Virus record (IMG/VR): IMGVR_UViG_3300030104_001062
Coordinates: 1-53,834 of that record
Origin: a virus
Direction: 5' to 3' (one strand)
DNA: 53,834 nucleotides
A model generated the notes under the pieces. The model did not search any database. It saw nothing but the letters and a program-made list of their open reading frames with translations, and was not told where the DNA came from. The position numbers were made by a program, and so were the translations under genes. Positions within the stretch are counted from its first letter, which is position 1. Every line of letters begins with the position of its first letter. Shown here one piece after another: positions 6,193-50,058 of the stretch.

Positions 6193-9100
6193 ATGGGAAG
6201 TGAATACACTAGAAATGACTCAGCTAATAATATAGCTGATGGAAACGTCATAAGTGCTGCCGATCTTGATGGAGAGTTTGAAAAACTGGTTACTGCGTTT
6301 ACAGCAGGAACTGGGCATAGCCACGATGGAACAACAGCAGAAGGTGGCTATATAACAAAACTATTGGGTACAGCTATTACAATTGGTGATGGTACAGCAG
6401 GTACAGATATAGCTGTTACATTTGATGGAGAAACAAATGATGGCACATTGACATGGATGGAAGACGAAGCACGTTTTGATTTTGCTAATAAAGTTAAAAT
6501 AGTAGATGCTACGGATGTAGATGTAGCTGATACTTCTGTAGGGTCTTTAGTTACAAATGGGGGGTTAGTTGTAACAAAAGATTTGCTTGTTGGAGATGAT
6601 ATATTTTTAGATTCAGATAGTTCTGTTGTAAAGTTTGGTGCTGATCAAGATATAACACTTACTCATGCAGCCGACACATCTTTAACGCTAGGTGGAGCAG
6701 GGAGTACAACTGGGTTAATAATTAATAATACAGCCACAGACGGTGATCCATTTTTAGCTTTTGCTTTGTCTGGAACACAGACATTTACTATGGGCATTGA
6801 AGATGGGGATAGTGATAAGTTTAAGATAGGCACAAGTGCAATAGGCACAAGCACCATACTTACCCTAACAAGCGATGACATGATTTTGGCTGACGATTTA
6901 AGTTTACAATCAGATGGAGCTATTCTTAATTTTGGTGCAGACGATGATATTTCAGTTACTCATACTGCTGACACATCTTTAACGTTAGGTGGAGCAGGGA
7001 GTACAACTGGGTTAATAATTAATAATACAGCCACAGACGGTGATCCCTTTTTAGCTTTTGCTTTGTCTGGAACACAGACATTTACTATGGGCATTGAAGA
7101 TGGGGATAGTGATAAGTTTAAAATAGGAACAACTGCAATAGGTACAGGCACGATACTTACTTTGACAGGAGATGATGTAATTTTAGCTGATGATCTAAGT
7201 TTACAATCAGATGGAGCTATTCTTAATTTTGGTGCAGACGATGATATTTCAGTTACTCATACTGCTGACACATCTTTAACAGTAGGTGGAGCAGGTAGCA
7301 CAACTGGGGTAATAATAAACAATACTGCTAGTGATGGTGATCCATTTTTAGCTTTTGCCTTGTCTGGAACACAAACATTTACTATGGGCGTAGAGGATGG
7401 AGACAGTGATAAGTTTAAAATAGGAACAACTGCAATAGGTACAAGCACCATACTTACCCTAACAGGCGATGACATGATTTTGGCTGACGATTTAAGTTTA
7501 CAATCAGATAGTGCCCTACTTAATTTTGGTGCAGATGACGATATAACTTTAACTCACACTGCTGATACATCTTTGACATTAGGTGGAGCAGGAGGAACAA
7601 CAGGGTTAATAGTTAATAATACTGCAGGGGATGGAGATCCTTTTTTAGCTTTTGCATTAAGTGGCACACAGACATTTACTATGGGTGTTGATGATGGAGA
7701 TAGTGATAAGTTTAAAATAGGAACAAGTGCAATAGGCACAAACACACGACTTACTATCGATTCAAGTGGAAACTCGGAATTTGGGGGGGATATTACAGCT
7801 AAAACAGGAGATGGTGCTATTCTAGCATTACAAACATCCCTTGATACTGTTATAGATGGATCTGTTTTAGGAACAATTCAATTTACAGCACCTGAAGAAG
7901 CTAGTGACACTGATTCTAGAGAAATTGCAGCTGAAATAGCTGCCGTAGCTGAAGAAGCTTTTTCAACAACATCAAATGCAACAGAACTAGTCTTTAAAAC
8001 AGGTGCATCTGAAGCCGCATCATCTAAAATGGTGTTGTCCAGTACAGGAATTTTATCTGTAAACGGTGGGGTTATTCCAACATCTGCTGACGGAGCAGCA
8101 TTAGGATCTGCAACTAAAGAATGGTCTGATCTTTATTTAGCTGATAGTGGAGTTATTTATTTTGGTGATGACCAAGATACAACTCTTACACACACTGATG
8201 GTACAGGACTAACTCTTAATAGTACAAATAAATTAAACTTTGGGGATACTGGAACTTTTATTAATCAAAGCACAGATGGACAGCTTGATATAGATGCTGA
8301 TACTGAATTAGAATTGACTGCACCTACAGTAGATATTGCAGCTTCAACTGCTGTTACTATAGCAACACCTTCATTAATTATTACAGATAACACAACTGAT
8401 GAACCTATTGTGCAAATTAAAAACACTCATAACGGCACAACAGCAGGTGAGTTACGATTTGTCATGGACAAAGGATCTGCAGGTGCTGATGGAGATGATC
8501 TTGGAACAATATCATTTTATGGAGATGACTCTGGTCAAAATCAAACAGCTTTTGCAAAAATAGTTGGTGAGGTATCAGAATCTGCTGACACAGATGAAGC
8601 AGGTAAACTTTCTTTTTTTGTTGCTGAAAGTGATGGCACAAATACAGCTTTAACAGCAGGTTTAGTTATCGAAGGTGAACACGCTACAGATGGTGAGGTT
8701 GATGTAACAATCGGTGCAGGTGCTGCATCAACAACAGCCGTTACAGGAAAATTAACTGTTGGAGGTACATCTACTTTTACTGGTGCTGTAACTGGCACTA
8801 CCATGACTCTTCTTACTACAACTACAGTTTCTTCTGCTTCACCACAAGCAAATGTAACTTTTGATTCGTCTTTAATTACTGATGACTATATGGATTACAA
8901 AATTGTATTTAGAAATGTTAGTTCAGTAACTGATGGTCAAGACCTTTATCTTCAGCCATCAATAGATAATGGTTCTAATTATAATCTTACAATCGAACAG
9001 TATAAATTCTACCACGATTTAATATCAGATGCTAGTGGGTCGGCAACAGCTCCTAATGATGAGAGTCGTTTTTATATAATGGCTTCACTTTCAAATACGG

Positions 9101-9348
9101 CAAACGAAGGGACTAATGGAGTTATTGAACTTGTGGGTTTAAGACAGACTACTACAAGTAATAAAGGAATATTTTGGAACGCAATGGGTGGTATTTCAAT
9201 ATGGAATAATCACAATGATGGTAATGAATATTGGTGGAATGGTGGTGGTAAAATAATAACTACAGGTGCAGTAAATAATTTAAAGTTAGTTTTGGAAAGT
9301 GGTAATATTAAACAAGGTACATTTTCACTATATGGGATAAAATTGTAA
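6193..9348 (+). CDS. Second repeat-built tail fibre protein (1051 aa)
   Basis: Large fibre. The N-terminal region includes a GHSHDG motif (His42, Ser43, His44), a His-x-His pattern known in phage fibres for metal coordination. Residues about 141-521 contain four near-identical 99-residue units, each with LGGAGSTTGLIINNTA, DGDPFLAFALSGTQTF and SDDMILADDLSLQSD-like blocks. The middle carries fibre-shaft segments (for example TSADGAALGSATKEWSDLYL), and the last 180 residues form a distinct C-terminal domain ending FSLYGIKL. The stop overlaps the assembly-chaperone gene. Two fibres of different repeat type suggest a two-component adsorption apparatus. Confidence 0.8.
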   Translation: MGSEYTRNDSANNIADGNVISAADLDGEFEKLVTAFTAGTGHSHDGTTAEGGYITKLLGTAITIGDGTAGTDIAVTFDGETNDGTLTWMEDEARFDFANKVKIVDATDVDVADTSVGSLVTNGGLVVTKDLLVGDDIFLDSDSSVVKFGADQDITLTHAADTSLTLGGAGSTTGLIINNTATDGDPFLAFALSGTQTFTMGIEDGDSDKFKIGTSAIGTSTILTLTSDDMILADDLSLQSDGAILNFGADDDISVTHTADTSLTLGGAGSTTGLIINNTATDGDPFLAFALSGTQTFTMGIEDGDSDKFKIGTTAIGTGTILTLTGDDVILADDLSLQSDGAILNFGADDDISVTHTADTSLTVGGAGSTTGVIINNTASDGDPFLAFALSGTQTFTMGVEDGDSDKFKIGTTAIGTSTILTLTGDDMILADDLSLQSDSALLNFGADDDITLTHTADTSLTLGGAGGTTGLIVNNTAGDGDPFLAFALSGTQTFTMGVDDGDSDKFKIGTSAIGTNTRLTIDSSGNSEFGGDITAKTGDGAILALQTSLDTVIDGSVLGTIQFTAPEEASDTDSREIAAEIAAVAEEAFSTTSNATELVFKTGASEAASSKMVLSSTGILSVNGGVIPTSADGAALGSATKEWSDLYLADSGVIYFGDDQDTTLTHTDGTGLTLNSTNKLNFGDTGTFINQSTDGQLDIDADTELELTAPTVDIAASTAVTIATPSLIITDNTTDEPIVQIKNTHNGTTAGELRFVMDKGSAGADGDDLGTISFYGDDSGQNQTAFAKIVGEVSESADTDEAGKLSFFVAESDGTNTALTAGLVIEGEHATDGEVDVTIGAGAASTTAVTGKLTVGGTSTFTGAVTGTTMTLLTTTTVSSASPQANVTFDSSLITDDYMDYKIVFRNVSSVTDGQDLYLQPSIDNGSNYNLTIEQYKFYHDLISDASGSATAPNDESRFYIMASLSNTANEGTNGVIELVGLRQTTTSNKGIFWNAMGGISIWNNHNDGNEYWWNGGGKIITTGAVNNLKLVLESGNIKQGTFSLYGIKL
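6613..7757 (+). repeat. Tandem 297-bp repeats in the second fibre gene
   Basis: Matching codons (Thr of TSLTLGG/TSLTVGG) fall at 6676, 6973, 7270 and 7567, exactly 297 bp apart. The first half-unit begins about 6613 and the last unit is truncated near 7757, where the sequence turns into SSGNSEFGG. Units 1 and 2 are almost identical at the DNA level. Confidence 0.9.
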
Positions 9349-21424: not shown

Positions 21425-21896
21425 GTACTGTGTCCAACTGATGTATCTTTACATTATAGCAGTCAGCTTTAAATCTAAATTTATTATCAGGATCTAGCTC
21501 ACCTTTTTTATGGTGTTTTGCTTTTTTAAAATAATCATCTTTCATTATCTTTCCCAATATCCACGCTTTAGAAAAATCGTTTAGTACACGAACAAACACA
21601 TACATATCACATTTTTGTTTTGTGCCATGTGCAGCAATACTACAGTCGTAGTTTGATTTGGGTTCAGAGTTGCAACGTTTTGTTTTGACATCTATCTTGT
21701 TGCCAACTTTATCGACTATATCATAATCATAGGTATTCTGTTCTTTTGCTTTGATGTAGTCCGTTACAACTATCTCTCCGATAAACCCTGCAAGGTTGCC
21801 CCCACCATTCGTAATAGAGTTTGCTATGCGACCCATATCAATGGCTTTCTTTCTTGCCCTAATAAATTGATCACCAGAAACTTCTAATTCTATCAT
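21411..21896 (-). CDS. Predicted PD-(D/E)xK-type nuclease (161 aa)
   Basis: Likely metal-dependent DNA endonuclease. Visible core: a helix with Glu (GFIGEIVVTDYI), then a strand pair DYDIVDKVGNKIDVKTK, where I-D-V-K-T-K gives the D-x-K active-site pattern typical of restriction-endonuclease-fold enzymes. Its length fits small phage or resolvase-like nucleases. The start overlaps the reductase stop by 4 bases (ATGA). It may take part in host DNA breakdown that feeds the neighbouring ribonucleotide reductase; this is inference. The upstream acidic residue of the motif is not certain by eye. Confidence 0.55.
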   Translation of the reverse strand: MIELEVSGDQFIRARKKAIDMGRIANSITNGGGNLAGFIGEIVVTDYIKAKEQNTYDYDIVDKVGNKIDVKTKRCNSEPKSNYDCSIAAHGTKQKCDMYVFVRVLNDFSKAWILGKIMKDDYFKKAKHHKKGELDPDNKFRFKADCYNVKIHQLDTVHGTE

Positions 21897-23827
21897 GCAA
21901 CTTCTCCAATATCAACAACTTCACAAGCATCTGCAGTACACGCTAATTCTCGACTTCCTGTTGTGCTATCCTCTTTTTCATATACGGATAATTTGCTAAA
22001 GTCAATTTCTTTTGGTGTCTTTAATAACATAGATGCATACTCTCCTCTTCCACAATCTTGATAAGGTGCTTGTTGATAGACGTGATCATCATATGGTAAG
22101 AAAGATATACCTGATATTATATCAAAATTATCATATACCCACGCACCTACATTCATCCACTCATCTTCTTTCACTGTTACAGTTATGGATGGTTTGTGTT
22201 CACACCACGTTTCTGCATATATCTTCCACAATTCTAGTTGTTCAATAGCTGATATATTTTTTCGTACAATAGCATTTTTTGGTGACATTGTAGGAAATGA
22301 AAATATTGTTGTGTACTCAGGTTTTACTACATCAGGTTCGTTTATTACTCCCTCATCTTTCATAAGTTTTGTAAGAGGATCATTGTTATCTGCTCTTACT
22401 GTTCGTATGTAATACTCACTATGTCTTGCATGTATGCCACTTGCAGAGTTAGTCAGTTGCGACACAGTACCTGAGGGTTTGACACAAGTTATCGCTGCAC
22501 TCTGAGGGATACCCAGTAGTTTTGCATACTCTTGATTTGTAAGGACTGCTTCTTCCTTCATTTCTTTTAGCCATCGTGTAGAGTCTGTAGTTTTTGATAA
22601 AACTGGATGATCCATGATACCAGTTAATGATACTCCTAATAATCTTTCTTCCTCTGTGTTCTGTTTCCATACCTTCCTCAAGTATTTAAAGTTAGTTAAA
22701 GTTGATTGAAATGTTCCAAGTATCGTAGCCATACGAACTTTCTTCTTTAGTGTTTGCAGTGTATCATCACTACGAACTATAACTTCAGACAAGTTGCAAA
22801 ACTGATAAGGTCTAAGTATTATTTCAGAACATGGGTTTGTACCCCATGCATGTCCTGTTTCTCTTCTTCCGTTTTTTGCAACTTGCTTGTCTGATGCTTC
22901 ACGATTAAACATACCACGCTCACCAGACTTTGATTCATACAGAGATACCCATTCACGCATAAACGTACCCATCTCTGGTTTATTCTTGTAGGATACACTA
23001 TTATTCGCTAAAGAACGTTGTTTTTCTGTGTCATACCAATTACCAGATTTAGCGTGTCGCATTTGATCATCACCAAGATTAGATAAACTAATTAGTGCAG
23101 ATCTTCTAACCCCACCAACTACAACTACTTGCCCAACCTTGCACATAATATCGTGACATTCTATTGGATATAGTTTGCGGCCACTAGCTTTTTTAAACGT
23201 ATTTACTGTAAAATCAAATAGCTCAACTAATGGTTCAGCACCAGATGCTCTACCCCCCATAACTTTTAGTTTTGCTCCTGCAGGGCGAACTAACGACACA
23301 TCCCATGTAGGTATCTGTCCAGAGTAAAGTAATGCGACTAGCTCTTTATAGGCTTTTGCCCATCCCATTCGACTATCTGCAACGCTTATAATTGTATTGC
23401 TTCGATGAAAGTTTTCAGCAATAATTGGTAGTTTGTCTACATTTTCTCGTTCTACTGAGAACCCAACACCTGTCCCACACATAAGTATATACATGCACTC
23501 ATCAAAAGCTCTAGGATGATCAACAGGAATATAACTACAGTTGTATCCACAGATGTTATCTCTGGTTAGTGCTTCCCCGGCAGTCATCATTGCTCGCATA
23601 GATGGCATTATCTTTAGTTCTAATATGTGGTTTCTAAGTGACGAATACAAGCCTATGTTGTGTCCATCTATATCAAAGTTATGCTCATTTTTTATATGAC
23701 TTGATACGTAACTTAAATATCTGTCTACTGTTTCATCCCAATCTTCTCGCCTTTTATCTTCTTCGTTCCATCGTGCGTATCGTGATTTATGTATAAAATC
23801 TTGATAAGGTGTTGGTAAATTTTTCAT
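21893..23827 (-). CDS. nrdJ: Adenosylcobalamin-dependent (class II) ribonucleotide reductase
   Basis: Reduces ribonucleotides to deoxyribonucleotides in the cytoplasm, supplying replication. At 644 aa it has the monomeric class II (RTPR-like) layout: YQDFIHKSRYARW at the N-terminus, GYNCSYIPVDHPRAF with the substrate-side cysteine, the glycine-rich GTGVGFSVERENV, the radical-cysteine loop NPCSEIILRPYQFCNLSEV and a C-terminal redox pair C-x4-C (ACTADACE). No NrdB partner or glutaredoxin is seen nearby. Overlaps DUF3310 upstream and the nuclease downstream by 4 bases. The need for cobalamin points to a host that makes or imports B12. Confidence 0.92.
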   Translation of the reverse strand: MKNLPTPYQDFIHKSRYARWNEEDKRREDWDETVDRYLSYVSSHIKNEHNFDIDGHNIGLYSSLRNHILELKIMPSMRAMMTAGEALTRDNICGYNCSYIPVDHPRAFDECMYILMCGTGVGFSVERENVDKLPIIAENFHRSNTIISVADSRMGWAKAYKELVALLYSGQIPTWDVSLVRPAGAKLKVMGGRASGAEPLVELFDFTVNTFKKASGRKLYPIECHDIMCKVGQVVVVGGVRRSALISLSNLGDDQMRHAKSGNWYDTEKQRSLANNSVSYKNKPEMGTFMREWVSLYESKSGERGMFNREASDKQVAKNGRRETGHAWGTNPCSEIILRPYQFCNLSEVIVRSDDTLQTLKKKVRMATILGTFQSTLTNFKYLRKVWKQNTEEERLLGVSLTGIMDHPVLSKTTDSTRWLKEMKEEAVLTNQEYAKLLGIPQSAAITCVKPSGTVSQLTNSASGIHARHSEYYIRTVRADNNDPLTKLMKDEGVINEPDVVKPEYTTIFSFPTMSPKNAIVRKNISAIEQLELWKIYAETWCEHKPSITVTVKEDEWMNVGAWVYDNFDIISGISFLPYDDHVYQQAPYQDCGRGEYASMLLKTPKEIDFSKLSVYEKEDSTTGSRELACTADACEVVDIGEVA

Positions 23828-24735: not shown

Positions 24736-25118
24736 TACGAAAATGTCTCCTTTATGTAGTTCATTCTTGTTGTTAACATCTTTGCCACTTCTGGGGAGTG
24801 TTTTTCTAAATTCTCTAGCTCTCTTTGAAATGGTGTAATTGGAAGACATATAATAGTTTGACTCCATAATTTTTGTTGTATATCTTTAAATTGTTTTAAG
24901 AGAGTTGCCTTATCTCGTGATTGTGTATCAGAGATTAGATGTCCTTTGGCCGCATAGTTTTCTCGCAACGTTACTGGTATGCCTTTAAGATGTCCTCTCA
25001 ACACTGCTAACATCCTACCCCCACCCATTTCTTTACGTGACTCTACATACATACAAGCCATATGAGGGTTCAACGATATGAACTCAATATCATAATCGTT
25101 TGTGTATACTAATGACAT
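24735..25118 (-). CDS. Hypothetical replication-operon protein (127 aa)
   Basis: Start at ATG 25118 in a TAATG overlap with the Cas4-like gene, with AAGGAG 6 bases upstream. Mixed fold beginning MSLVYTNDYDIEFISLNPHM, with a glycine cluster (EMGGGRMLAVL) and a helical C-terminus. No enzyme motif is certain. Flanked by two nucleases, it may modify or assist DNA processing. The last codon overlaps the resolvase start. Confidence 0.6.
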   Translation of the reverse strand: MSLVYTNDYDIEFISLNPHMACMYVESRKEMGGGRMLAVLRGHLKGIPVTLRENYAAKGHLISDTQSRDKATLLKQFKDIQQKLWSQTIICLPITPFQRELENLEKHSPEVAKMLTTRMNYIKETFS

Positions 25119-25993
25119 TACAAACTCCTTTGTACGTACCGAGTGTACCAAATCTGTGGTGGAGACTTTGCCTTTGATGTAATCTTGTTTTCAAGTCTAG
25201 CATCTTCCCAACAATGTTTTTTATACTCACAGAAAGAACACAACTTAGGCATCAGTCTGTTTTTAGTTCGGACTATTTCACCATCTTTTCTGTAAGTTTC
25301 CCAATCATCTTTTAGTTTTGCCTTTTTAAAGTCTGCTTTCTTAACAACTTTAACGATGTTATCAGCCTGTTGCAAAACTCTTTTTCTTTCACTTATATCC
25401 TCTGGTGCATCAACAACAGCCCATTCACCTGTGGACTTATTAATTACAATCCAACCACCAAACGGCATATTGTTTGCTTCGCCATACAGATGTCCTTGTA
25501 CTATGTATCCAAATGGATCATCTTCCTTTATCTTATCATATCCGTTTTTAAATTTTTGATCAAAAGAAAAGGGGGATGCTGATTTAATGTCCCAAACTTT
25601 TTTTGTTCCATCTTCATCTAAGATAACATCTAATGTTCCTTTTATGTTTTCTTTATCCAATACAATAGAACATGGCTTTTGTTCACCCACAACTTTTATT
25701 CCTGCAGCTTTAATAACAAGCATAGCAACTGCTTCAATTAAATCACCAAACAGGAAACGCATTATATCGTTGTAGGAACTCTCTTTAGGACAATCTTGCA
25801 TACTAAGTATCTGTTGACAGACAGGTCTACCTATGCCAGACATTCTTAGTTTAGCACCTTCTCGTCTATTAAATTGTTTTTTTATTGCAGTTTCGCAAGA
25901 ATCTTTGAACTCTTGGATAAGATGATCAGGGAGTTTAACTTCTCCCTGACCAGCTTTGTCTAAAAACTCCTGTATACTAACTAGCAACAGCAT
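25118..25993 (-). CDS. Cas4/RecB-like PD-(D/E)xK exonuclease with Fe-S cysteines (291 aa)
   Basis: Probable exonuclease that processes DNA ends, filling the slot of T7 gp6. With the 25993 start: GDLIEA (Glu87), GTLDVILD (Asp122), WDIKS (Asp135, Lys137) and YIVQGHLYG (Gln166) form the RecB-type core. Cys59 (GRPVC) plus the C-terminal C-x2-C-x5-C (Cys252, 255, 261) match the four cysteines of the iron-sulphur cluster in Cas4 and AddB. The start is uncertain: ATG 26032 adds 13 residues but overlaps the upstream gene by 56 bases, against 17 here, and neither start has a strong ribosome site. No Cas genes or CRISPR arrays are nearby, so it is a phage recombination/replication nuclease. Confidence 0.8.
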   Translation of the reverse strand: MLLLVSIQEFLDKAGQGEVKLPDHLIQEFKDSCETAIKKQFNRREGAKLRMSGIGRPVCQQILSMQDCPKESSYNDIMRFLFGDLIEAVAMLVIKAAGIKVVGEQKPCSIVLDKENIKGTLDVILDEDGTKKVWDIKSASPFSFDQKFKNGYDKIKEDDPFGYIVQGHLYGEANNMPFGGWIVINKSTGEWAVVDAPEDISERKRVLQQADNIVKVVKKADFKKAKLKDDWETYRKDGEIVRTKNRLMPKLCSFCEYKKHCWEDARLENKITSKAKSPPQIWYTRYVQRSL

Positions 25994-26789
25994 CGAAGTC
26001 TTTGGAAAGGTCTGAATCTTCTTCAGATACATTACCTTTTAAAGCTTCGTTGTACTGCTTCATAACGTTAACATTTGCAGCATCAATGGTATCTTTGAAC
26101 ATTCTGATTAAAGTTTTATCCTCATCGGATAGAGAAGTCAAAGACTTACCTTCAGTTGGTACAGGTACAAAAAATGTAACTGAACCTTTCTTCATTTTAG
26201 ACGTTTTTAAATCAATCCAAATTCTTTGCATGATTTTTTTCTGTTTGTTTAGTCCTGTAATAAAATTGTTTATAGGCATAAACCCAGATTTCTTAAAGTA
26301 ACTGACAATAGGCAGGTTATCTATCTCCACATCATTGCCATCAGCATCTTTCATTTTGCCAGATAACACTCCGTAAATAACTTGATTACACGTGACTGCT
26401 TTAGATGTAATCAGTCGAGGATCATCATCTGGTAAAGTTTCTGCTTCTTCTTTCGCTAGACGACCACATTTGTTGCCACCTATCGTGTCTGCAAAGTCTC
26501 CAGACAGACTTGCTTTTTGAACAGAATTACAAATGGGTTTCCCCTCATCTGCATCAAAAAGCGACCACATGAACGATCTCATAAATACACGTAATTTAAT
26601 CTCTGGGGCATATAAATATCGTCCATCATACCAGACTCTCCAATCACCCTTTTTTAGAGTTTGTCCAGTATCAGTTTCGGTTTCGTAGTTAATAGCCAGT
26701 TTGGACAACTCACTTTTAACTTGTCCATCATCCTGACCTGTTAGTTGCATCAGAGCTTGATCATCATCATTTTCTAATGCTTCGACCAT
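25977..26789 (-). CDS. Putative single-stranded DNA-binding protein (270 aa, possibly 283)
   Basis: Lies between polymerase and exonuclease, the position taken by gp2.5-type SSB in many podoviruses. It ends in an acidic tail (VSEEDSDLSKDFDAVAS), the interaction tail typical of SSBs. Aromatic and basic strands (DWRVWYDGRYLYAPEIKLR) could contact DNA. No OB-fold signature can be proved by eye. The ATG at 26789 has no ribosome site. A strong AAAAGGAG (26844-26837) stands 8 bases before an in-frame ATA at 26828, which would add 13 residues reading NNLATINDQFGK. The true start may therefore be non-AUG. Confidence 0.5.
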   Translation of the reverse strand: MVEALENDDDQALMQLTGQDDGQVKSELSKLAINYETETDTGQTLKKGDWRVWYDGRYLYAPEIKLRVFMRSFMWSLFDADEGKPICNSVQKASLSGDFADTIGGNKCGRLAKEEAETLPDDDPRLITSKAVTCNQVIYGVLSGKMKDADGNDVEIDNLPIVSYFKKSGFMPINNFITGLNKQKKIMQRIWIDLKTSKMKKGSVTFFVPVPTEGKSLTSLSDEDKTLIRMFKDTIDAANVNVMKQYNEALKGNVSEEDSDLSKDFDAVAS

Positions 26790-26863
26790 CTTACCAAATT
26801 GGTCATTTATTGTTGCTAAATTATTTATTTTAATTTCTCCTTTTAAGAAAGTTAGCGATAAAT

Positions 26864-28402
26864 TTATTCTACAGGATAAACAACGTTGGTGTCAAGCCAA
26901 TTCTCACCTTTTTTTATTTCTATTTCAACAGGCATTAAGTAATTGATTTTGTAACGTTTTTTAAGATCGGCCGCAACACCCAGCATGGAAACTTTTAAAA
27001 TTTCTATCACATGTAGTTCTTCATCTGGATGACAATCAACTACGATTGAGTCGTGTACCGTATTACAAATTATAGATTTATATGGTCTTAATCTTTTCTC
27101 TAATTCGACTAAACAACAGGGCAAAATATCAGCCGTTGCAAATCCTTGAACAGGGTAATTACAGATAGCAGTTCTGTTTGTTGCAGTACCCCATTTTGTC
27201 CATTGTGTATCCGGGAAACAGTATCTGCGACCAGAGGGCAGTATGATTTGTTTTGTTTGTACGGCTTCTTTCTGCAGGTCTTCGTGCCAATCTGTTACAC
27301 CTTCATACTTTTTCTTAAACGCTCTGTAATATTTTTGTTGTTCAGGTGTACCTGTAGTGCCACCGTACAATGGTTTGAATGTATCTGCTTTTGCCGTTTG
27401 TCTATCACAACCAATGACAGACGCTGTATATGAATGTACATCTACACCTTCTTTTACATCTTTATATATTTGCGAATCATTTGCCAAAAACCCTGCAACT
27501 CTAAACTCCAACTGTGAATAATCACCTTCAATAATTGACCCACCCTCAAACCTACTCTCCACAACTTTCCGTATACGAAACGTAGATCCACGTGGCATGT
27601 TCTGAAAATTTGGGTTTCTTGACGATAGACGACCTGTAGCAGTAATGCACTGCATAAATTCTGGATGTATATAACTATTCTCATCAACATTGTTTTCCAT
27701 TCCTTCTACAAATGTACTAAGGTATGTACGCAAAGCTGAATACCTTACATACAACTCAACAAACTCTTTTGCTTCACCTTTTAAAGATGACAACATACTT
27801 TCAAGAGTTGTCTTATCTGTTTTAAATCCTGCTTGTGCAACATCCTTAGTGTTTCTTGGTACGATGCGTAATCCTGCAACTTGTTTACTTTGAGAGTATA
27901 CAACACCTGTCGCATTACAATTCTTACACAATCTATTTGCTTTGCCTAACTCTCCACTCTTAAGTCTAAATCTTTGTCGACCTTCACCTTCACATGTACC
28001 ACATTGATACCCTGTTGTCTTTGTAATTATCTGTGTGTTATTTCTTATGGTTGCGGCAAAATTAGTTTTTGACATTGGCTTACGCATCTTTACTTTCTTA
28101 GTTGCACCACGCATCTCATGCCCAATGTTAAATAGTCTTGCCCATGTTTCTTTGTTGTTTATCTTTCGTGAATAAAACAACATAGACCTATCATCTGCAC
28201 TGTTTAAATTTATTGGTGTGTCGCCCATAACATTACTTACTAATTCTTTTAGACGTTTGTCTATTGTCGTTAGCTCGTGTTCATATTCGTTGCGTATATC
28301 ATTTAATGTCTCTAGGTTTATTTTTATTCCTGCATGTTCTATCTTTGCAAGAACGTCTGTCATATCAAGCGACAAACGCAGTGTCGGCAATAGTTTCTTC
28401 AT
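26864..28402 (-). CDS. polA: Family A DNA polymerase, polymerase domain with DnaJ-like zinc finger (512 aa)
   Basis: Replicative polymerase. With the 28402 start: palm motif A DYSQLEF (Asp294), finger motif B with Arg334, Lys338, Phe342 and Tyr346 (RQTAKADTFKPLYGG), motif C VHDS (His450, Asp451). Inserted at about 134-166 is a zinc-finger pair CxxCxGxG and CxxCxxxG like the central domain of DnaJ, a trait reported for the HMO-2011 polymerase. The 3'-5' exonuclease domain is missing here and is encoded by the upstream gene, which overlaps by 38 bases in another frame. Start chosen because GAGGAG lies 10 bases upstream and MKKLLPTLRLSLD resembles the natural linker; ATG 28363, just after the exonuclease stop, is an alternative. 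Confidence 0.88.
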   Translation of the reverse strand: MKKLLPTLRLSLDMTDVLAKIEHAGIKINLETLNDIRNEYEHELTTIDKRLKELVSNVMGDTPINLNSADDRSMLFYSRKINNKETWARLFNIGHEMRGATKKVKMRKPMSKTNFAATIRNNTQIITKTTGYQCGTCEGEGRQRFRLKSGELGKANRLCKNCNATGVVYSQSKQVAGLRIVPRNTKDVAQAGFKTDKTTLESMLSSLKGEAKEFVELYVRYSALRTYLSTFVEGMENNVDENSYIHPEFMQCITATGRLSSRNPNFQNMPRGSTFRIRKVVESRFEGGSIIEGDYSQLEFRVAGFLANDSQIYKDVKEGVDVHSYTASVIGCDRQTAKADTFKPLYGGTTGTPEQQKYYRAFKKKYEGVTDWHEDLQKEAVQTKQIILPSGRRYCFPDTQWTKWGTATNRTAICNYPVQGFATADILPCCLVELEKRLRPYKSIICNTVHDSIVVDCHPDEELHVIEILKVSMLGVAADLKKRYKINYLMPVEIEIKKGENWLDTNVVYPVE

Positions 28403-28943
28403 CTCCAAATAACTCCTCAAATGTTGTGCCAAAGGCTTCTAATTGTTTTAAAGCAACTTGCTCTGTTGCTTCAACGTCTGACCGACCATACTCTTCAATT
28501 ATGTCGTAAGGTATCTCATAGAATGTTTTACCATCTTTTAAATATCCGTCAACAAGACTTTTCTTTTTTAATGCTCCATACTTTTCAGCTACGAGTTGTA
28601 ATCCTAAACTCCAACGTCTAGAGGATGAAAGGATGTATTCAGCAACCATAGTATCATAAAGGTGATTATTATATACAAACCCACAATCACGTAGCCAAGT
28701 AATATCGAACTTGATATTGTGACCAATGAGGACATCAACGTTGTCCAAAGATTCTTGCAATAATTCTTTAGCCTTGAAGTCAGGTTTACGAACAGAATGA
28801 TTAAAGCATAAGTAAGAGGTAAAGCTATCCATGTACTTATAGCCAACGCTAACGAGTTTGTTGCCAAAATAAGGTAAGGGAGTGTGTCCACCATTAGTCT
28901 TCTCCTTGTGTGTTGTTTCTACGTCTAGTGTCATGTAAATCAT
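28365..28943 (-). CDS. DnaQ-like 3'-5' proofreading exonuclease, split from DNA polymerase (192 aa)
   Basis: Contains all three exonuclease motifs: Exo I LDVET (Asp7, Glu9 with the 28943 start), Exo II IGHNIKFD (Asp80) and Exo III YGRSDVEAT (Tyr152, Asp156). It corresponds to the N-terminal proofreading domain of family A phage polymerases, but a TGA at 28365-28367 ends it before the polymerase domain, which continues in the +1 frame. The two products may associate, or ribosomal frameshifting may fuse them. Start chosen at MIYMTLDVETT; ATG 28973 adds ten basic residues that overlap a small basic reading frame. Confidence 0.82.
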   Translation of the reverse strand: MIYMTLDVETTHKEKTNGGHTPLPYFGNKLVSVGYKYMDSFTSYLCFNHSVRKPDFKAKELLQESLDNVDVLIGHNIKFDITWLRDCGFVYNNHLYDTMVAEYILSSSRRWSLGLQLVAEKYGALKKKSLVDGYLKDGKTFYEIPYDIIEEYGRSDVEATEQVALKQLEAFGTTFEELFGDEETIADTAFVA

Positions 28944-29019
28944 ATTTTTTTTGTCTCTCTTTCTTTTTATCATACTTCTTTTTATCTGGCATTATTCTAC
29001 GTCTATTGTGTGCCATCAT
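28894..29019 (-). CDS. Tiny highly basic reading frame (41 aa)
   Basis: Starts 8 bases after the HNH stop and overlaps the exonuclease start. The encoded peptide is extremely rich in Lys, Arg and Asp (NRRRIMPDKKKYDKKKERQ), with no hydrophobic core. It has no ribosome site; a tandem ATGATG is the only start. It may be a real nucleic-acid-binding peptide or a chance frame in an A-rich region. Confidence 0.3.
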   Translation of the reverse strand: MMAHNRRRIMPDKKKYDKKKERQKKYDLHDTRRRNNTQGED

Positions 29020-29026
29020 TAGTAGT

Positions 29027-29377
29027 CTAGCTATTGGGTTTATCTTTTGCATTTTTACGAGGTCCTGATGAAACTAATTTATTTTGTCTTTGATATTCTG
29101 AGTGTACTGCATGACAGTTAGCACAAAGAACTCTACACTTTCTCATTTCTTTTTTTATAGCTTCTATTGAGTAATTATTCATCCTGCTAATAATTTTAAA
29201 TTTAGTTTTAGGATCTATGTGATCAAACTGTAAAGCACATGCATGTTTTCTATAACCACATAATTCACAACCCAAAAAAAGTTTTACTCGTTTGATAAAT
29301 CTTTTTCTATGCAAACTTGTATTCTTTTTAGATAACTGTTTTTTCTTTTTAGTTGACTCTTTAATAATACACTCCAT
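29027..29377 (-). CDS. HNH endonuclease (116 aa)
   Basis: Shows the zinc-bound HNH fold: GCELCG, then LQFDHIDPKTK (His of the first H), and CRVLCANCHAVHS with the second cysteine pair and final His. The N-terminus is a Lys-rich DNA-binding arm. Free-standing HNH enzymes of this size in phage replication operons are often homing endonucleases. Its insertion between helicase and exonuclease, with a 17-base overlap onto the helicase end, fits a selfish element that settled in the operon. A role in packaging is less likely because HNH packaging partners sit beside terminase. Confidence 0.8.
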   Translation of the reverse strand: MECIIKESTKKKKQLSKKNTSLHRKRFIKRVKLFLGCELCGYRKHACALQFDHIDPKTKFKIISRMNNYSIEAIKKEMRKCRVLCANCHAVHSEYQRQNKLVSSGPRKNAKDKPNS

Positions 29378-30590
29378 GTTCTACATCTATATTACAATTC
29401 AACATACCATGCCAACCATTTATTTTATTTTTTGATATACAGATATGTCGCACTATATTCTCAACTTCACTTGAGCCTGTTTTACCTATGCCCACTATTA
29501 CATCTGCTTCTCCTGCTTTGCCTGTCTTACTATTGTCAAGCATTGCATAGTCAATGAAAGCACGATCATGTGCTTCATAACTTGCTTGGGAAACTGCCCA
29601 CAATAAAAGATTTCCACGTTTTGCAACTTCTCTAGCAAGTATGTAAATCTCTTTCAATCGTTCATCCCCACGACCAAACTCACCACGCACCTTAAACTTA
29701 TCCAACTGATCACAAAACATTATGTCAGGCTTGTTCAACTGTGCATAGTCGTTTACCTCTTCAATAGATGTTCCAACTGAATCCATAATCCGTAGGTATG
29801 GCTTTATTTCTTTTCTGTACAGTTCAATATACTTCTCACGATCTGTATTTAGTTCTTGTTTTGTCACGTTAAAATAACTTTGTATAATTCGTAATTTTAT
29901 GTTTACGGCAGGTTCTTCGTTAGCCCAGTACACGACTAATCTTTTCTGTCGTATGTAACTGGCACATAAGAAAGCACAGAATGTCGTCTTACCTACTTCT
30001 GGTCTGGCAAATATAATACCTAAGTTACCCCTCCACATACCTTGCAGCACATCACTAATGATGCCCCAATCAAATGGAAAATCAGGCTGTCCAGCACCAT
30101 GATCAAGCAACTCTCCAAGATCCATGTCAACTTCAGTATATGTCGTTTTGTTTTCCATGCGACCATCTTCAACTGTATCTATAATGCGTTGCAATTCACC
30201 AAAGTCTTCATCCTGTCCTGTAAATATGGATATGGCTTTCTCACCAATGATCCTTGCTCTGTCACGCAACCAAAAGTTTTTGACTATATCCATTTGTAAG
30301 TCGTGGTTGTTTGCATCAGGTGGTAGTGAATCAACTACAAGAGATAGTTCTTTCTTTGAGGAAGATGGCATAGCAGGATGTTTGTCAACATGCAATGCAA
30401 ACAATTCATCTTTTGTCAGGTCTTTCTCATAGTTTGTATGTGCAAATGAAATACTTCTGAACAATTCTTTTAACTGTCCAGAAAACATTTCGTCATCAAG
30501 TATGTTTTTTACTTTGTTGAAAAAGTCATGGTTTAAACAAAACCCTATGACCTTATGATCAATTGATATGTTTTCTAATGATTCGTTCAC
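29361..30590 (-). CDS. DnaB-like replicative helicase (409 aa)
   Basis: Hexameric 5'-3' fork helicase candidate. Walker A is ARPEVGKTT (about 195-203) and Walker B DIMFCD (289-294); motif H3-like WAVSQAS and a late arginine-finger region DNSKTGKAGEADVIVG follow. The N-terminal 150 residues are a reduced DnaB-type domain for primase contact. There is no zinc/TOPRIM primase domain in this chain; the primase is the gene upstream, overlapping by 32 bases, unlike the fused T7 gp4. The ATP-binding motifs are clear. Confidence 0.85.
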   Translation of the reverse strand: MNESLENISIDHKVIGFCLNHDFFNKVKNILDDEMFSGQLKELFRSISFAHTNYEKDLTKDELFALHVDKHPAMPSSSKKELSLVVDSLPPDANNHDLQMDIVKNFWLRDRARIIGEKAISIFTGQDEDFGELQRIIDTVEDGRMENKTTYTEVDMDLGELLDHGAGQPDFPFDWGIISDVLQGMWRGNLGIIFARPEVGKTTFCAFLCASYIRQKRLVVYWANEEPAVNIKLRIIQSYFNVTKQELNTDREKYIELYRKEIKPYLRIMDSVGTSIEEVNDYAQLNKPDIMFCDQLDKFKVRGEFGRGDERLKEIYILAREVAKRGNLLLWAVSQASYEAHDRAFIDYAMLDNSKTGKAGEADVIVGIGKTGSSEVENIVRHICISKNKINGWHGMLNCNIDVEHGVYY

Positions 30591-31359
30591 GTTCGTTATC
30601 CTTTAAGTTTTTCAGATCATCTGTTAATATTGCAACTTTGCAGTTCACATAATGTGAAATCTTTTTTGTCATCTCCATTGCCTTGAGTGTTGCATCTTTG
30701 TCAAGTGCAACTACTGCATTTTTATATTTCTTAATAATGTCAACATGTTGTTGCAACAAGTTAGTTCCCATCAATGCTAATGTCGAAACTTTGTCAGCTA
30801 TACTACACGCAGATGGGCAATCTTCTACAATAAAAATATTGTCACTATTATTGTGTATATGAAATCCAAAGTTTGTCTTTCCGTATCTATACCACTTTGG
30901 CTTTTTGTCAGCTAATGTTCTCCCTATTGCATCAACTACCCTACCCTTGTCCTTTACAAGAAATGTCACCCTATCGAAACGAATGTCATACATAATGTCA
31001 GCACGATTGTCCAAGTACGCTTGATACGAATTAACTGAACGTACATAGTCAATAGCCTTTTGATTACGTGATAAAGGAACAAAGGTAGTTGGTAGTTGAA
31101 ACTCAATAGAAGGAGTATGTTTTATACTTGGCTTTAACTTCTTTTCAAACACCATACGAGAGTTAGTTTTTGTCAGCCTTTTGCCTGTCACACCTTTGAC
31201 ATCACAATCAGCATAAAAACAATTGTACATTCTCTCATAACCATTGTCACTAACGCTTAAAGTATTCTTCTTATGACACGATGGACAATCTATTCTTAAT
31301 CGCCCATTGGGTTGCAAAGCTAAATCTTCAATAAATGTTTTCACCCAAGTATAACTCAT
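30559..31359 (-). CDS. DNA primase with zinc-binding and TOPRIM domains (266 aa)
   Basis: Makes RNA primers for lagging-strand synthesis. A zinc ribbon at the N-terminus has CPSC and, after about 18 residues, NCFYADC. The TOPRIM core shows FIVEDCPSACSIAD with the conserved Glu and AVVALDKDATLKA with the Asp-x-Asp pair. First gene of the leftward operon. The start is ambiguous: ATG 31383 adds MLWFSFDF, while ATG 31359 gives the more natural MSYTWVKTFIED. Neither has a ribosome site, and 31359 lies about 8 bases after a possible -10 element, so the mRNA may be leaderless. Confidence 0.82.
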   Translation of the reverse strand: MSYTWVKTFIEDLALQPNGRLRIDCPSCHKKNTLSVSDNGYERMYNCFYADCDVKGVTGKRLTKTNSRMVFEKKLKPSIKHTPSIEFQLPTTFVPLSRNQKAIDYVRSVNSYQAYLDNRADIMYDIRFDRVTFLVKDKGRVVDAIGRTLADKKPKWYRYGKTNFGFHIHNNSDNIFIVEDCPSACSIADKVSTLALMGTNLLQQHVDIIKKYKNAVVALDKDATLKAMEMTKKISHYVNCKVAILTDDLKNLKDNERERIIRKHIN

Positions 31360-31366
31360 AAAATCA

Positions 31367-31395
31367 AAACTAAACCATAACAAAAACTATGTCAA
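31367..31395 (-). promoter_or_regulatory. Candidate leftward early promoter
   Basis: On the minus strand TTGACA (31395-31390) is followed after 17 bases by TAGTTT (31372-31367). The -35 is perfect and the -10 weak (3 of 6). It would start RNA close to ATG 31359 of the primase gene. It is the only promoter-like sequence upstream of the compact leftward operon that I could find. Confidence 0.45.
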
Positions 31396-32339: not shown

Positions 32340-32535
32340 TCATTTTCATATATATGATCAGCACAAAGATTTGTCATTTCAAATCGTGGGTAAAACTAAC
32401 TTCATTAAATGGTTAAATGAATGTACGACTGAACGTTTAGTTGACTATGGTAGATATAAATACTTTACAACTTATTCAGAATTGAGTAAGTTCTTAAAAA
32501 GTAAAGGAAAGGATATAGATAATGAGAGTGTATAG
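32323..32535 (+). CDS. Hypothetical early protein (70 aa)
   Basis: ATG 32323 was chosen over 32308 because AGGAG stands 7 bases upstream. Aromatic and His-rich start (MPYLNNHFHIYDQHKDL) with a Lys-rich helix at the end. It overlaps the methyltransferase start by 14 bases, so it may be coupled to it. No function can be assigned. Confidence 0.55.
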   Translation: MPYLNNHFHIYDQHKDLSFQIVGKTNFIKWLNECTTERLVDYGRYKYFTTYSELSKFLKSKGKDIDNESV

Positions 32536-33667
32536 TGCATTTAATGGCTTTAGTGGTGCTAATGTTGCTCTAGATAGAGCAGATAGAAAAGTAACTACAT
32601 ACTTAGCTAGTGAGATAGATAAATGGTGCAATGCCGTTACTAGATACAACTACCCCAATACAAAATTTATTGGGGACATAACTAAACTTAATCCAAATAG
32701 TATAAAGGACATTGATCTGATGATCGGTGGATCGCCTTGTCAAGATGTATCCTTTAGTGGAAAAGGTAAAGGTTTAGTTGAAGGTGAACGATCTAATTTG
32801 TTCTTCGTATGGTTGGAACATCTCAAGACAATCAAACCAAAGTACTTCTTGTTGGAGAATGTCAAGATGAAAAAAGAATATCAAGATATGATTTCTGATG
32901 CTCTTGGTGTTCAGCCTATGATGATTCCGTCTAGTCTTGTAAGTGGACAAAAACGAGATCGTCTGTATTGGTTTAATTGGAAGTGTGACTTACCAAAGGA
33001 CAAAGGTATTTATCTACAAGATATAGTTGAAGATGGTGCAGTTGATAGAGATAAGTCTTTCTGTATAGATGCAAACTATTGGAAAGGTGGTAATCTTAAA
33101 TCATACTTCACAAAGAATAGACGACAGTTAGTATTTGACAATCATAGGTGTATCCAAGTCGGTGAAGCAGATATAAAAGGTTATGATGTGATCAAACGAG
33201 TGTATGCAAGAGAAGGTAAATCCCCAACTCTAACAACTATGCAAGGTGGACACAGAGAACCAAAGGTAATTTGTGGACAGATGGTAGGTCGTAAGATTAA
33301 TCCTAAAACCAATAAACGAGATGACTACAATCCTAACATTAAAACTAAACAACGTATTGAGTTGAAAGGTGATGGTAAAAGTGGTGCTTTGACAACTGTA
33401 CAGAAGGATAATCTTGTTGTTACTGATAAGTATTGGAGAGCATTAACACCTAAAGAGTGTGAACGTCTGATGACACTACCTGATGACTATACTATGTTTG
33501 GAGATTTTGAGGAAAACAACTATGCACATTACAAAGAATCTATTGGAGATGCCGATTGGTATAATGATATAAAGGACATATCCAAGACTCAACGATATCG
33601 TATGCTTGGTAATGGTTTTGTTGTTGATGTAATCGCTCACATATTAAGGAGTATGCCTAATGGCTAG
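32522..33667 (+). CDS. C5-cytosine DNA methyltransferase (381 aa)
   Basis: Transfers methyl from SAM to carbon 5 of cytosine. Motif I FNGFSGANVALDRA, motif IV GGSPCQDVSFSGKG with the catalytic Cys, motif VI LLENV, motif VIII SGQKRDRLYW and motif X YRMLGNGFVVDV are all present and in order. The region between VIII and X (including SPTLTTMQGGHREPK) should hold target recognition. No matching restriction enzyme is nearby, so the enzyme probably protects phage DNA from host restriction or marks its own genome. Overlaps neighbours on both sides. The target sequence cannot be read from the protein. Confidence 0.92.
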   Translation: MRVYSAFNGFSGANVALDRADRKVTTYLASEIDKWCNAVTRYNYPNTKFIGDITKLNPNSIKDIDLMIGGSPCQDVSFSGKGKGLVEGERSNLFFVWLEHLKTIKPKYFLLENVKMKKEYQDMISDALGVQPMMIPSSLVSGQKRDRLYWFNWKCDLPKDKGIYLQDIVEDGAVDRDKSFCIDANYWKGGNLKSYFTKNRRQLVFDNHRCIQVGEADIKGYDVIKRVYAREGKSPTLTTMQGGHREPKVICGQMVGRKINPKTNKRDDYNPNIKTKQRIELKGDGKSGALTTVQKDNLVVTDKYWRALTPKECERLMTLPDDYTMFGDFEENNYAHYKESIGDADWYNDIKDISKTQRYRMLGNGFVVDVIAHILRSMPNG

Positions 33668-49428: not shown

Positions 49429-50058
49429 ATGTTACTTCAATTATTAACTCCAGAAGAGGTAGACTTCTGTGTCAAAAATAGCTGCCAAATGGAAGATGGC
49501 TCAAAATCTAAGCCACTCACAGGATCAAAGAATAACAAAGAATCAACAAACATGCCTGATAAGGTACGTGAGTTAATAACACAAAGGATATATAATAATC
49601 CGTTTGTTGATGCAGTAATAAACCCTACAAAAGTATCGGTAAATTTTTATAACCAATATAATGAAGGGGGACATTATGATAAACATATAGATAACTTCAA
49701 AGCTGAACCTAAAATAAATAATACATATTTTGACTATGGGTTTTCTATATGCTTAAATAGTGATTACGATGGTGGAGAATTTATTGTTGATAATGAAATA
49801 GGTCAGATACCCTATAAGTTACAAGCAGGACAAGTTCTTTTCTTTCCTATAATATACGCTCACACAGTTGCACCAATTAAAAAGGGAGTGCGAAAAGCAG
49901 TTATAGGTTGGATGTCTACTAACGTAACATACGAACAAACTTATATATTGCGTAACATATATGATGTTAATATGCATTTTGTAAAAGAAAATAATAATGA
50001 AATGGCTGTAAAGTCTACTTTAACACAAAACTATTTAAAAAAGTTATGGGGAAAATAA
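49429..50058 (+). CDS. 2OG-Fe(II) oxygenase (PKHD/prolyl hydroxylase-like, 209 aa)
   Basis: Iron- and 2-oxoglutarate-dependent hydroxylase family. Iron ligands appear as GHYDKHIDN (His86, Asp88) and YAHTVAPI (His145), with Arg155 (KKGVRKAVIG) for 2-oxoglutarate, and the strand FSICLNSDYDGGEF is usual for the fold. Marine phages often encode this enzyme next to structural genes; substrates are unknown (nucleic acid or protein side chain). The final 40 residues are a helical extension. Confidence 0.85.
   Translation: MLLQLLTPEEVDFCVKNSCQMEDGSKSKPLTGSKNNKESTNMPDKVRELITQRIYNNPFVDAVINPTKVSVNFYNQYNEGGHYDKHIDNFKAEPKINNTYFDYGFSICLNSDYDGGEFIVDNEIGQIPYKLQAGQVLFFPIIYAHTVAPIKKGVRKAVIGWMSTNVTYEQTYILRNIYDVNMHFVKENNNEMAVKSTLTQNYLKKLWGK

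Follow-up and report, generated by a model that had tools for sequence, protein, structure and literature searches.

A family A DNA polymerase encoded as separate exonuclease and polymerase genes in an uncultured lineage related to the HMO-2011-type marine phages

The E. coli replicase Pol III carries polymerase activity and proofreading on two subunits, alpha (DnaE) and the exonuclease epsilon (DnaQ). Its likeness to the system described here is functional only; Pol III belongs to family C, and the catalytic core is unrelated. Stand-alone proofreading exonucleases of phages are found in PHROG 192 and 403 ('DNA polymerase exonuclease subunit'), which matched the exonuclease of this study at E values of about 3e-7 and represent different families. 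In the T4-type phages 25 and 44RR the replicative polymerase is split into gp43A and gp43B, and the two chains of phage 25 were reported to co-purify and to be active (PMC2988022). That polymerase belongs to family B, and its split is associated either with a homing endonuclease or with a spacer that is not translated (PMC2988022). A marine family A polymerase in two genes has been described in the MEP401-type OM43 phages (Zobellviridae), where the authors proposed an intron (PMC10580990). The MEP401-type exonuclease is 37% identical to the one described here; there, however, the polymerase domain itself is interrupted, its two parts being separated by a small gene, and it has no zinc-knuckle insertion (PMC10580990). 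The polymerases of the HMO-2011-type phages (HMO-2011, HTVC033P and the CRP phages; PMC9038755) are alike in exonuclease, in a thumb insertion with two CxxC pairs and in polymerase. Their replication genes follow the same order as in the present DNA, and the polymerase part is 38-45% identical, but in all isolates of this type examined the polymerase is one gene, whereas the clade reported here has two. Split phage polymerases are already known elsewhere, and the split at the exonuclease/polymerase border is a new variant, of which no account was found in the mostly open-access literature searched.

The DNA examined was a window of 53,834 nt, IMG/VR virus record IMGVR_UViG_3300030104_001062. 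Its replication genes lie on the complementary strand, where a Toprim primase gene (30559..31383; PF13155, E 1e-4) stands upstream of a DnaB-type helicase gene (29361..30590; PF03796, E 2e-9), the upstream neighbour of the polymerase locus. The 3'-5' exonuclease gene (28365..28973, complementary strand) is of the DEDDy type and matched Pfam PF01612 (DNA_pol_A_exo1) with E 1e-9. Its product has 202 aa if read from the ATG at 28973 or 192 aa from that at 28943, and the relatives favour 28943. It ends at a TGA (28365..28367, same strand), before which the three proofreading motifs of the original prediction, DVETT, GHNIKFD and YGRSD, are present. The family A polymerase gene (26864..28402, complementary strand) encodes a 512-aa chain running from thumb to palm (PF00476, DNA_pol_A, E 2e-50), from which the exonuclease domain is absent, the exonuclease being a separate gene throughout the split clade. 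The polymerase frame is +1 relative to the exonuclease and is open from further upstream; its best start is the ATG at 28402. Read from the sequence, the two genes overlap by 38 bases (28365..28402), and a ribosome binding site, GAGGAG (28413..28418), precedes the polymerase start within the exonuclease gene, both on the complementary strand. The predicted arrangement of two genes, 38-base overlap, +1 frame and own ribosome site could thus be confirmed.

A first scan returned 80 relatives at 63-97% identity; both genes were visible in 77, and all 77 were split with the polymerase in the +1 frame. Further scans were centred on HTVC033P, on HMO-2011 and on two split members that are divergent. 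Among the matches listed, 392 records comprised 221 split, 164 fused and 7 without exonuclease. The split layout was seen in every listed related record showing both genes (221/221), and the fused polymerase in every listed record around HTVC033P, HMO-2011 and two Roseobacter isolates (164/164). At the seven loci without exonuclease the contig begins there; elsewhere the exonuclease always adjoins the polymerase. The scans share records, and the distinct polymerases among the matches listed numbered 108 split and 143 fused. Full-length members in the surroundings of CRP-235 likewise had one ORF. A DNA pattern spanning the junction was found in at least 147 places, of which 144 were judgeable and all 144 split. 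Scans and DNA pattern together yielded at least about 160 distinct split polymerases from many metagenomes, and other assemblies with 88-99% identity over 300 nt at the junction had the two-gene layout as well. Among the relatives, the single-gene version was found in other subgroups.

Quick maximum-likelihood trees of the polymerases placed the split forms in one clade (SH-aLRT 100), with fused forms across the branch. The neighbour of this clade in the quick trees was the HTVC033P subgroup (support 92 and 88), to which it appears, with moderate support, to be sister. The window polymerase falls among the HMO-2011-type polymerases, its nearest isolate being HTVC033P at 45% identity. It shares their family A domain, their DnaJ-like insertion with two CxxC pairs and their position in the trees; the exonuclease is not in the same polypeptide, so that the window clade represents a split form of the HMO-2011-type family and not a typical member. 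The split is the derived state, because relatives outside the clade are fused. The comparison shows two genes that go back to one origin and have long been maintained, with their active sites intact. Every split sequence is a metagenomic contig. A nucleotide search of 50,697 phage records matched HTVC033P alone, at 65% across one third of the query sequence, and hence that collection holds no isolate of the split clade. A host search in bacterial genomes gave only three distant matches (23-33% identity), which were uninformative. The clade is an extensive lineage of marine bacterial viruses that have yet to be brought into culture.

Conservation at the junction was assessed by counting start positions from the conserved LLPTL at the beginning of the polymerase. 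Of the 108 split polymerases, 107 had a start codon within codons -5 to -2, which was ATG in 91 of them, and the remaining one had it at codon 0. A start codon at the domain border was thus present in 108/108 split versus 1/143 fused polymerases. Upstream of the start, the split relatives carry a ribosome site of the GAGGAG, GAGGAA or AAGGAG type, with a median duplex energy of -6.2 kcal/mol across the 108, compared with -2.8 at random places in the same genes and -1.5 at the equivalent position of fused relatives. Site variability by codon position followed the exonuclease frame before the border and the polymerase frame after it. The polymerase codon lying over the exonuclease stop was CTT in all 75 cases of Leu (CTT makes up 21% of Leu codons overall) and TTT in all 23 cases of Phe (TTT, 61% overall), counts that are phylogenetically non-independent yet span the clade. 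This choice among synonymous polymerase codons keeps the exonuclease TGA. Members without a TGA at the usual place have another stop close by and are still split. The overlap measured 8-68 bases across the 108 distinct split relatives. It was only 8 bases long in L324 (GTGAGTAG) and about 11 in L484. The genes of L557 and L574 overlap by 4 bases (ATGA), so that the polymerase is read there in the other frame.

Both chains retain their active sites. Among 24 aligned split-clade exonucleases, D7, E9, D80, Y152 and D156 were invariant, and so were the DEDDy signatures Exo I DxE, Exo II Nx3D and Exo III YxxxD. Polymerase motifs A, B and C were matched in 108/108 distinct split polymerases. An AlphaFold model of the window polymerase (mean pLDDT 78.5) was compared by VIA-align with Bst polymerase (2hvh; Z 27.5, residues 461-876), Klenow (8oo6; Z 25.8, 520-928) and T7 gp5 (1tk0; Z 24.6, 207-704). 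The model matches Klenow from residue 520, the domain border, and corresponds to the polymerase part without exonuclease. For a model of exonuclease and polymerase in one chain, the structure of the naturally fused relative L118 was predicted (pLDDT 79.3, pTM 0.73). Its two domains jointly superpose on Bst polymerase (Z 29.3, rmsd 3.3 over 513 residues), and at the position of the split border the chain forms a short loop that links the final helix of the exonuclease to the opening helix of the polymerase. A cut in this loop would keep both domains whole, making reassembly plausible, although the model itself is of a single fused chain. The exonuclease tail within the overlap shows little conservation and is missing in L324, so it is not likely to be the joining element.

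The replicative family A polymerase of the split lineage is therefore very probably made as two proteins, the exonuclease being produced separately and the chains rejoining non-covalently as a Klenow-like proofreading replicase. With its catalytic residues intact, the product of the upstream gene is predicted to be an active 3'-5' proofreading exonuclease. The polymerase, comprising thumb with zinc insertion, fingers and palm, would be translated as a separate product of the message that also encodes the exonuclease, since its ribosome site and start are found close to where the exonuclease gene ends; its translation is probably coupled to that of the exonuclease. Two chains arising through internal initiation are the most likely mode of expression, judging from the junction sequences. 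The chains would then come together without a covalent link, arranged like Klenow as in the fused-relative model, to act as a proofreading replicase.

Separate genes permit independent fates, and free DEDDy exonucleases exist; the exonuclease could accordingly be in the course of being lost or serve another purpose, with a polymerase that works without proofreading. This is an unlikely though not negligible explanation, as the exonuclease stands beside the polymerase wherever a locus has sufficient flanking sequence, its catalytic residues do not vary and its stop is under selection.

The original prediction had left a choice between two reassembling subunits and a frameshift producing a fused form. 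A programmed +1 frameshift in the overlap, yielding a fused polymerase beside or in place of the two chains, would agree with the +1 frame found in almost all members and with the maintained TGA. The junctions nevertheless make it quite unlikely. The stop follows a codon that is not slippery and that varies, most often GCT but also GTT, ATT, ACT, TCT and others; the stop may be TGA, TAG or TAA, and its position shifts between members. No conserved slippery codon and stop context was found across the clade. The short overlaps of L324 and L484 and the ATGA overlaps of L557 and L574 are further obstacles, and a conserved ribosome site and start would be superfluous. RNA structure at the window junction was ordinary (z 0.03), with none above shuffles in the window and L013; the L557 junction, which differs from the window's, gave z -2.5. 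One conserved +1 slip cannot fit the varied stops and overlaps and the ATGA cases, while two genes can. Of the two options, frameshifting therefore found no support and the two subunits fared better; a fused product may still be made rarely.

Although single-gene relatives exist, a one-base sequencing or assembly error that broke a single gene is extremely improbable and, as far as the relatives can tell, excluded in practice, because the two-gene layout recurs across the whole set of distinct split sequences from many metagenomes, with codon-level selection acting on both starts and stops.

Two other causes of the split were considered and rejected. An inserted intron or homing element does not explain the split, as the genes overlap with nothing between them; no Rfam match was found at 26500-30700. 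An HNH endonuclease gene (29027-29377, complementary strand; PHROG 2255, E 9e-27) lies between helicase and exonuclease, upstream of the latter. Of 83 split loci that show the helicase, just 37 contain a relative of this gene; the others and HTVC033P lack one, and the gene is therefore not required for the split.

The window polymerase also carries a C4 zinc-knuckle part resembling the DnaJ central domain (27895..28003, complementary strand; two Cys pairs, residues 134-169). Its knuckles read CGTCEGEG (CxxCxGxG) and CKNCNATG, the second thus being CxxCxxTG, and the C4 pattern was present in 108/108 distinct split polymerases. In the window the match to Pfam DnaJ_CXXCXGXG was weak (E 0.004, 17.7 bits); that in HTVC033P was stronger (E 9e-6, 26.3 bits), and both lay below the cut-off of 32.7. 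When E. coli Pol I and T7 gp5 are aligned to it, the window polymerase shows an inserted stretch of roughly 110 residues in its thumb, to which the knuckles belong. The two knuckles of the original prediction are present, with one correction of their place: they lie inside the thumb and not between the exonuclease and the polymerase domain. The insertion occupies the thumb region where T7 gp5 has its thioredoxin-binding segment. From this position one may guess at a contribution to processivity or at contact with a partner in replication. A thumb insertion with zinc knuckles also occurs in fused HMO-2011-type polymerases (PMC9038755). Being common to fused and split forms, it did not arise with the split. 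For the same reason, and because of its location in the thumb, the suggestion that the zinc finger helps the chains to reassemble was not upheld, and the insertion was rejected as a joining device.

Several other genes of the window could be described. Two genes downstream of the polymerase (25977-26789 and 25118-26032, complementary strand) included one without any Pfam match and one with a very weak PD-(D/E)XK nuclease match; by position only, ssDNA-binding and recombination functions are possible. A B12-dependent (class II) ribonucleotide reductase is encoded at 21893-23827 on the complementary strand, unlike in the HTVC033P subgroup, where ribonucleotide reductase was reported not to be found (PMC9038755). 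A C-5 cytosine DNA methyltransferase (32522-33667; PF00145, E 2e-36) lies on the forward strand, opposite to the replication genes, and a 2OG-Fe(II) oxygenase gene (49429-50058, forward strand) stands among structural genes. The forward-strand genes 133-2850 and 6193-9348 encode long proteins in which nearly identical repeats of about 45-60 residues recur many times; from their translations, inspected by eye, these are likely tail or fibre proteins.

More tentatively, the lineage may possess a family A replicase that naturally consists of two subunits. Its proofreading chain would be detachable, so that the dose and the presence of this chain at the primer end could be set independently of the polymerase, and the zinc-bearing thumb of the polymerase may replace an external processivity factor; we regard this extended reading as possible, though somewhat doubtful. 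In Pol I-type enzymes, proofreading and synthesis are by textbook account combined in one chain and have been separated artificially in the laboratory. Here, evolution cut exactly at the domain border and retained both halves. The survey of HMO-2011-type phages required polymerases of >540 aa and a coverage of at least 80% (PMC9038755). The 512-aa chain of the window fails the length filter, so the diversity and abundance of the group may be underestimated, and surveys filtering on full-length polymerases would tend to miss the split lineage. Family A proofreading in trans, and its effect on phage mutation rate, are now directly testable.
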